DNA of 64,000 nt from Neomelitea salexigens DSM 19753 (GTDB taxonomy: Bacteria; Pseudomonadota; Gammaproteobacteria; Pseudomonadales; Spongiibacteraceae): NCBI RefSeq assembly GCF_000422345.1, contig NZ_AULP01000004.1, positions 124,001 to 188,000 of the forward strand, read 5' to 3'. The position numbers and the translations under genes are program-made. How positions within the stretch are numbered: position 1 is the stretch's first letter; every line of letters starts with the position of its first letter. This document shows positions 27,443-29,547 of the stretch, piece by piece. A model generated the notes under the pieces. The model ran no database searches. It was not told the origin of the DNA and saw nothing but the letters and a program-made list of their open reading frames with translations.

Positions 27443-29209
27443 CTACTGGCCTTGCTGCTGAGTGCCGTGTTGATGCGCGTCATTGAGTTCACGCCGCAGG
27501 ATATCGATCTCTCTAATAGATTCCTCCGCTAAACCGGCGAACTCCATTTGCAAGGCCAGTGCTTCAAAGTCTGTGGCCTGCCCCTGACGCGCGTACAGGT
27601 CAAGCAGTAGCATTTGTAGCTCGAGAGATTCGTCGTCGCGCAGGGCCTGCTCAAGGATCTGCTGAGCGCCGCGGTAGTCCCCCAATTCAATGCACGCCGC
27701 CGCAACCGCCTGCGGCGAGTTATCTTCCTCAGCCACACGGCCAGTCACCGCAGCAATAGCTGCGCCGCCAGACTGTTCTTTTGGGGTATCCCCCAGTTCC
27801 GCGAAAACGTCTTCAAAATGTGTTGCCGACGCCTTGGGGACAGCCGTGGCCACGCCAGCATAGTGAAACGCTTGCAAGCGGCGTTTTGCGGCAGCTTTAC
27901 GGCGTCGATAAAACAATAGCCCGCCCACCGCTGCAACACCCAGTGACAGCAACGCCCAGGGGCTGCCGCGCCACTCAGCATTTTCAGGCAACGGCGCAGC
28001 TGAGGCCCCACCAATGGACGTCGCGTCAGTCTCTGTAACGCCAGATTGAACCGCCTCAGAGGCCGAGGCCACATCAGCACCACGCACAAATTCGCTTGAT
28101 ACCGTTTGATCCCCGGCCTGAGGCGCCTCGGCCAGGGGCTGCGCATCACTCACCGCCGGCACCACTACGCTATTTTCGGCCTGGATCGCGGCAGTTTGGC
28201 CCTTCAGGGCAGTATATTCATCCTGCAAGCTGAGCAGGCGCGTCTGTAGCGCCTGCAAGCGGCTATTCATTGCCTCGATATTCGCGCGTACGGCTGACAC
28301 TTCGTCGGTCACCGCTGCCAACGAAGCCGTCAAGCGCTGCTCTTCGGTCATCGACTGGGCGGCGTTGGAGCCTACAACAGTGCTTTCTGTCGAAGCTTCT
28401 GGCACCGTTTCTGCTTCATTACTTACCGTGCTTTTCGGCGCAAGCGATGTTTGTTTGTCGGAACCACCTGGGCCGCCACCGGGTAGCAACACATCGGCAA
28501 GTGCTGCCGCCTCAACATTTAGCGAGACGGACTCCTTTAACATATCTTTTTCGCCGCGTACAAAGGCGTGGGGGTTTAGGCGATAGACCGCCTCCATCAG
28601 GGGCAGCTGCTCACCACCTCGGGCACGCCGAATGCGCGAAGCCACTCGCCAAAGGCTATCTCCGCGCACCGTTGTATACGTCGATACATCAGCGTTAATA
28701 GGCCGCCGCGGCGACGATTTCGCTGGGCGATTACCCTGTGCTGGTTTTACCGATGCTAACCGGGTACTCGCTGCGCCCGCTTGAACCACACTTGCCTGCT
28801 CCGGTGCCTGCGCAGGCAAGTCGAGTAGCAATGTGTATTCACGCTCTATCGTACCTGTCGGCCAGCGCACCGATAAAACGAAATTAAGGAAGGGTTCAAC
28901 GATCGGCGTGGTGCTGCGTAAATAAATCACGCCGCTGCCAGAAAGGCTTAATTCACTGCGTACCGACAGGGTTCGGGTATCAAGCCCGCCCATTGCACTA
29001 TCGCTCTGTGCATCCCACACCGGTTTCACATCAATCAGAATTTGTTCGGGATCCAAGCCCTCTGCACCGCTGATAACCACGCGTGCGGCCAATGGCTTAC
29101 CTAACACCGAATCCAGCTCCGCACGACCTAAACCCATCGCTTTCGCATCGGGGCTAACGGCGACCGCTAGTAGCAGTGGAATAAAAGCAGGGGCTCGCAG
29201 TTTCTTCAT
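27443..29209 (-). CDS. fimV: FimV/HubP-like polar landmark protein
   Basis: 588 residues, shorter than Pseudomonas FimV (about 920). A signal peptide (about 1-24, ending PDAKA) precedes the FimV N-terminal domain MGLGRAELDSVLGKPLAARV. A LysM-type peptidoglycan-binding domain follows (YTTVRGDSLWRVASRIR, about 170-230), then a coiled coil (270-345), one transmembrane helix (SPWALLSLGVAAVGGLLFY) and a cytoplasmic C-terminus with TPR-like repeats that organises type IV pili or flagella at the pole in relatives. The short acidic central region makes this a compact version. Confidence 0.9.
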   Translation of the reverse strand: MKKLRAPAFIPLLLAVAVSPDAKAMGLGRAELDSVLGKPLAARVVISGAEGLDPEQILIDVKPVWDAQSDSAMGGLDTRTLSVRSELSLSGSGVIYLRSTTPIVEPFLNFVLSVRWPTGTIEREYTLLLDLPAQAPEQASVVQAGAASTRLASVKPAQGNRPAKSSPRRPINADVSTYTTVRGDSLWRVASRIRRARGGEQLPLMEAVYRLNPHAFVRGEKDMLKESVSLNVEAAALADVLLPGGGPGGSDKQTSLAPKSTVSNEAETVPEASTESTVVGSNAAQSMTEEQRLTASLAAVTDEVSAVRANIEAMNSRLQALQTRLLSLQDEYTALKGQTAAIQAENSVVVPAVSDAQPLAEAPQAGDQTVSSEFVRGADVASASEAVQSGVTETDATSIGGASAAPLPENAEWRGSPWALLSLGVAAVGGLLFYRRRKAAAKRRLQAFHYAGVATAVPKASATHFEDVFAELGDTPKEQSGGAAIAAVTGRVAEEDNSPQAVAAACIELGDYRGAQQILEQALRDDESLELQMLLLDLYARQGQATDFEALALQMEFAGLAEESIREIDILRRELNDAHQHGTQQQGQ

Positions 29210-29547
29210 TGCCGTATTCTCATTTCTTGTTGTGAGTCACTTCACATTTATCATTACCCTACAGCTTACAACATTTTGAGTAAAAGTCGCGCGGCAAACG
29301 CTGGTTAGTGGCCTGAGGCCTGAGCTACGCTTAATAACAGACTAGCTCGAGACTAAAATGAAAAGCTGGCGACATGCCATGAAAGAAAAGCGTCAGCGTC
29401 ACAGCATTGTCACGTTACTGCGTTAGGATCACCGCTTATCCACAACAAGTTTTCCCCAGATACAGTGAATAAGCTTGTGGATAAGGCTGTTCAATTCTCC
29501 GCTGAGCAACGTCTCATCAACGCTGCCGCCACGCGCGTAGTTTTTGA
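29210..29547. other. Intergenic region with DnaA-box array
   Basis: 338 bp between the convergent-free ends of fimV (start) and the MFS gene (stop), both on the minus strand. It holds the DnaA-box cluster at 29436-29484 and GATC sites at 29427-29430 and 29546-29549. A 22-codon basic frame (29358-29426) is also present. No strong fimV promoter is obvious. Confidence 0.7.
29436..29484. promoter_or_regulatory. DnaA-box cluster
   Basis: Two perfect boxes face each other: TTATCCACA (29436-29444, plus) and TGTGGATAA (29476-29484, minus), within an 11-bp inverted repeat CTTATCCACAA/TTGTGGATAAG. Between them are two weaker boxes, TTTTCCCCA (29450-29458, plus, 7 of 9) and AGTGAATAA (29464-29472, minus, 8 of 9 against TTATNCACA). 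Their starts are spaced 14, 14 and 12 bp. No dnaA, dnaN or rpmH is near. Confidence 0.7.

Follow-up and report, generated by a model that had tools for sequence, protein, structure and literature searches.

A putative DARS1-like DnaA-box array, terminus-proximal in complete relatives, as one of two DARS-type sites kept across a marine-bacterial family

The question raised by this locus is what role a tight, evenly spaced array of DnaA boxes plays in an intergenic spacer that lies away from dnaA. The window, i.e., the whole 64-kb stretch of DNA analysed here, corresponds to positions 124001-188000 of contig C4 of the source genome (G000; 3.44 Mb in 21 contigs), and the array is located in a spacer of 338 bp (29210-29547) that separates two minus-strand genes, a fimV-like one and an MFS gene. 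An earlier, sequence-only reading had described two perfect and two weaker boxes at intervals of 14, 14 and 12 bp, and the coordinates and sequences confirm this description, the intervals being start-to-start distances. An outer box (29436-29444, plus strand, TTATCCACA, perfect) starts 14 bp before box I (29450-29458, plus strand, TTTTCCCCA, one mismatch), which is followed by box II (29464-29472, minus strand, TTATTCACT, one mismatch) and box III (29476-29484, minus strand, TTATCCACA, perfect). Boxes I to III and their spacers of 5 and 3 bp make up a 35-bp core (29450-29484, plus strand), the top strand of which reads TTTTCCCCA-gatac-AGTGAATAA-gct-TGTGGATAA and in which box I is opposed to boxes II and III. 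A weak fourth box is tentatively placed 3 bp past box III (29488-29496, minus strand); this position has three mismatches in the window and one or two in several relatives (e.g., G009, G017 and G020). An 11-bp inverted repeat, whose arms (29435-29445, CTTATCCACAA, and 29475-29485, TTGTGGATAAG) take in the outer box and box III, and a GATC just outside it (29427-29430) are both present as had been reported.

It was also claimed that the boxes are clustered more densely than chance would allow, and this was borne out, although single boxes with at most one mismatch are not enriched over shuffled sequence (81 in the window versus 85 expected), an observation which in itself would suit a chance cluster. 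Of 300 simulated windows of 64 kb, just one contained four boxes inside 49 bp. With its spacing held exact, the three-box pattern matches the array with no mismatches and has no other match in the window even where three mismatches are allowed, while base composition predicts approximately 0.0002 exact and 0.012 one-mismatch triads per genome; a first-order simulation of 8 Mb returned no triad at one mismatch or fewer, in agreement with the analytic value of 0.012. As the triad is rare in simulation and is conserved across two genera between scrambled flanks (see below), a chance grouping of boxes is scarcely credible. A search of the spacer against Rfam returned no match, and a promoter and terminator scan of the same spacer returned no terminator and one promoter-like site on the plus strand, which is about the number expected by chance.

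The arrangement of the core is that of the DnaA-reactivating sequences (DARS) of E. coli. A DARS core has previously been defined as three boxes, the first opposed to the other two, with equal spacing in DARS1 and DARS2 (PMC5742627). The E. coli cores, located in the MG1655 sequence by triad geometry inside the published intervals rather than by printed coordinates, read TTATCCACT-attcc-TGTGGATAA-cca-TGTGTATTA for DARS1 and TTATTCACC-ttttc-TGTGGATAG-agt-TGTGAAGAA for DARS2, and direct alignment with the window array, hereafter locus A, revealed identical box orientation and identical 5-bp and 3-bp spacing in all three. Locus A furthermore shares with DARS an intergenic location that is conserved in position among relatives. 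DARS1, located in the bioD-uvrB spacer, resembles locus A in having no IHF site of its own; it requires a stimulatory region flanking its last box (PMC4585315), and the same box III-side flank is modestly conserved at locus A. The two differ in that locus A has other gene neighbours and extra outer boxes, lies nearer the terminus, and combines a weak box II with a perfect box III, which is the reverse of the situation in DARS1. DARS2, located beside mutH, has the same core geometry; it too has boxes that depart from consensus, as do boxes I (TTTTCCCCA) and II at locus A, where this counts to some extent against a DARS assignment. However, DARS2 needs IHF and Fis, whereas locus A has neither a conserved IHF site nor a distal box. 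No positionally conserved IHF match was found at locus A, and thus the fixed-distance IHF arrangement of the DARS2 type is missing there. Locus A is accordingly described here as DARS1-like on the strength of its sequence features, a designation that rests in part on this lack of a recognisable conserved IHF site.

The sequence-only reading had proposed that absence of the array from close relatives would speak against a function, and a search of related genomes instead revealed strong conservation. The source genome is that of a Spongiibacter; among named organisms its closest relative is S. marinus, whose MFS protein (L025) is 98% identical, followed by Zhongshania. When the spacer was compared with 58 relatives, a short block (query positions ~248-286) was found to be kept throughout the genus and family, whereas the remainder of the spacer can be recognised only in S. 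marinus and a small number of near relatives. In each of the 19 aligned family loci, which span two genera, the 35-bp core adjoins this MFS gene, and the locus A triad was found in 21 of 21 family genomes. In the core-aligned profile of the 19 loci (10-bp bins), conservation amounts to 1.3-1.8 bits in the core versus ~0.2 bit upstream, and towards fimV it does not extend past the core. Beyond box III, by contrast, positions +40 to +69 of the core retain 0.63-0.64 bit against a background of ~0.2 bit, which marks a moderately conserved flank (29485-29519). Outside the window, the GATC, the 11-bp inverted repeat and the outer box (29436) recur in S. marinus but in no other member of the family, for which reason the GATC and the repeat were not retained as functional parts. 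A further conserved block at +92 to +100 was not counted as part of the element since it is where the MFS gene ends in the window, and probably in the relatives too.

A search of the whole source genome with the triad pattern, allowing up to two mismatches, returned exactly two places: locus A, with no mismatch, and a second triad with one mismatch (C1:476620-476654; L031, L090), hereafter locus B. Locus B is present in 20 of the 21 family genomes, the exception being a genome that is 70% complete, and it adjoins queD in all 20 genomes that carry it, so that a family genome, like that of E. coli, generally has a pair of triads; a queD-adjacent triad was also observed in three genomes belonging to other families of the order (L039, L042 and L126). 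Two genomes (G016 and G017) contain one further triad match each, and a reversed-pattern control returned no match in the family. The geometry itself is specific: when both spacers of the pattern were lengthened by 2 bp, the number of genomes with a match fell from 47 of 58 to one of 58. Many of the queD-adjacent genomes have an IHF-like site with no or one mismatch near +120 of locus B, within a conserved AT-rich stretch (+76 to ~+140), and a DnaA box is located at +203. E. coli DARS2 carries IHF matches at +93 and at +109, together with a perfect box at +211 whose orientation is opposite to that of the +203 box. The conserved IHF-like site and the distal box thus point to locus B as a DARS2-like site.

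Taken with the box geometry, the most probable reading of locus A, at roughly 0.8, is that of a DARS1-like DnaA-reactivating sequence which is paired with the DARS2-like locus B, and which would represent one of two DARS-type sites kept across a marine-bacterial family. Such sites are of a kind already known; what is unusual is the terminus-proximal position seen in the complete relatives, and the extra boxes are lineage-specific. The sequence-only reading had named datA and DARS together, and the DARS part of that proposal is upheld by box order, orientation, spacing and conservation of the unit, while the datA part fits poorly, there being no conserved IHF site and the locus lying near dif in the complete relatives. 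Under a titration or datA-like reading, the boxes would hold initiation back, either by sequestering DnaA or by promoting ATP hydrolysis together with IHF. In its favour are the density of the cluster, its two perfect boxes and its non-coding location outside oriC; E. coli datA is likewise a non-coding group of DnaA boxes outside oriC and acts on the nucleotide state of DnaA. However, datA has another box layout, and it fits poorly because it is located near oriC and depends on IHF (PMC5742627, PMC4585315), whereas no IHF site is conserved at locus A, which in the complete relatives is found near the terminus. Simple titration, moreover, would not need exact spacing, yet the spacing is fixed, as the comparison with lengthened spacers indicates. 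A role of this type is therefore considered unlikely.

Control of the neighbouring gene is a further proposal, by which the array would serve as a DnaA-controlled promoter region for fimV. In the window, as in most relatives, the array does lie upstream of the fimV-like gene, ~240-275 bp from its start, and the assignment of the array to a fimV-MFS spacer holds as to location; however, the gene concerned (27443-29209) is a short FimV_N paralogue, a larger fimV (open frame of 1074 aa) being located ~64 kb away on the same contig (G000:C4:217174). The FimV_N paralogue is absent from the neighbourhood of the array in some relatives. Five genomes have rlu rather than fimV beside the array, their main fimV being located elsewhere; G016 and G017 belong to the same genus, G018-G020 to a sister genus. 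The promoter role is disfavoured because these five genomes retain the array without fimV alongside. In addition, the spacer scan found no promoter-like site for fimV, and conservation halts at the fimV-side edge of the core. The array is thus not chiefly a fimV promoter, and a regulatory role of this sort is judged very unlikely. The suggestion of an origin-like element or an origin remnant, for which the DnaA boxes and the nearby GATC might speak, is more improbable again: in the source genome dnaA and its box cluster are located on a different contig, in line with the claim that the array lies away from dnaA, the GATC is not conserved, and in complete relatives the array is found near dif, opposite dnaA. 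For these reasons of position the array is not regarded as oriC. At G000:C2:535408-535465, ~10 kb from dnaA and distinct from the cluster just upstream of that gene, two perfect DnaA boxes in inverted orientation were observed 49 bp from each other.

The chromosomal position of both loci was assessed in three complete relatives (G004, G011 and G014), in which origin and terminus were placed from dnaA and dif. Locus A lies at ~91%, 87% and 91%, respectively, of the arm from origin to terminus, and locus B at ~79%, 81% and 69%; in the source genome, a dif-like site shares a contig with locus B, at a distance of 476 kb. A mid-arm position of DARS is conserved among relatives of E. coli, although such a position does not enter into the biochemical definition. 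In E. coli itself, both DARS1 and DARS2 are closer to the middle of the arm, while locus A is terminus-proximal in all three complete relatives, and this position represents a real difference from E. coli, one that weighs against the DARS reading, and the most interesting point of the present analysis. Moving E. coli DARS2 to the terminus has been shown to weaken it and to impair timing (PMC5742627).

If locus A operates as its E. coli counterparts do, boxes I, II and III would be bound by DnaA, the opposed boxes I and II holding a pair of ADP-DnaA molecules in a head-to-head arrangement, and further DnaA molecules would be recruited by box III and the weaker extra boxes. Contact between DnaA molecules would then cause ADP to dissociate, and the empty DnaA would depart and bind ATP; the resulting rise in ATP-DnaA would help the next initiation at oriC. 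That DnaA binds locus A, that ADP is released there and that initiation is affected is inferred by this analogy. The DnaA protein of the host is 65% identical to that of E. coli and retains R227, D269, R285 and L290, of which R227, D269 and L290 have been shown to be important to DARS activity in E. coli (PMC4245941, PMC5742627). The host also encodes Fis (61% identical), IHF alpha (81%) and an Hda-like protein.

Triads of the same geometry extend well beyond the family. In a sample of the class, 262 of 377 genomes contain at least one triad at one mismatch or fewer, mostly one or two each, compared to ~14 of 377 for the reversed pattern (our own count from the table); these class-wide matches represent shared geometry, conservation in place being established for a minority of them. 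Forty order- and class-level loci were compared with a small set of marker genes, and no dnaA or dnaN was found within ~3 kb; it is therefore unlikely that these wider triads are parts of dnaA-linked origins. Among the forty, one adjoins queD (L126) and one adjoins uvrB (L118), the others being unassigned with respect to these markers. The uvrB-adjacent triad (G175:C1:388382-388416), from a genome of another order, shares this neighbour with E. coli DARS1 and is possibly its direct positional counterpart. Another genome carries three identical DARS-type triads ~670 bp apart (G036:C61:41358-42740), with a fourth, different triad 6 kb away, in what is apparently an amplified site.

Conservation of DARS has previously been described in relatives of E. 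coli, including Vibrio cholerae and Shewanella denitrificans (PMC8682772), and the DARS2 core has been considered restricted to E. coli-related gamma-proteobacteria (PMC4245941). Among the titles and abstracts retrieved for DARS together with Pseudomonas, none reported sites in that genus; wider conservation may have been mentioned earlier, e.g., in the original DARS paper of 2009. The class-wide spread of triads is broader than that in the DARS literature consulted (PMC4245941, PMC8682772). It is a speculative proposal, and on balance a doubtful one, that a terminus-proximal DARS couples DnaA recharging to the end of replication and that the two-site set is ancestral to much of the Gammaproteobacteria. 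If this were true, locus A would be copied just before the forks meet, giving more reactivation capacity as the round ends, an arrangement coupled to the terminus that has not been described for E. coli, and the DARS pair would not be confined to E. coli relatives. In Spongiibacter and Zhongshania the core geometry is exact and occurs twice per genome; together with its occurrence in at least one place in 262 of the 377 genomes, this suggests that recharging of DnaA at DNA sites is far more general, with many natural variants available in which box strength, extra boxes, the IHF site and chromosomal position could be tested.
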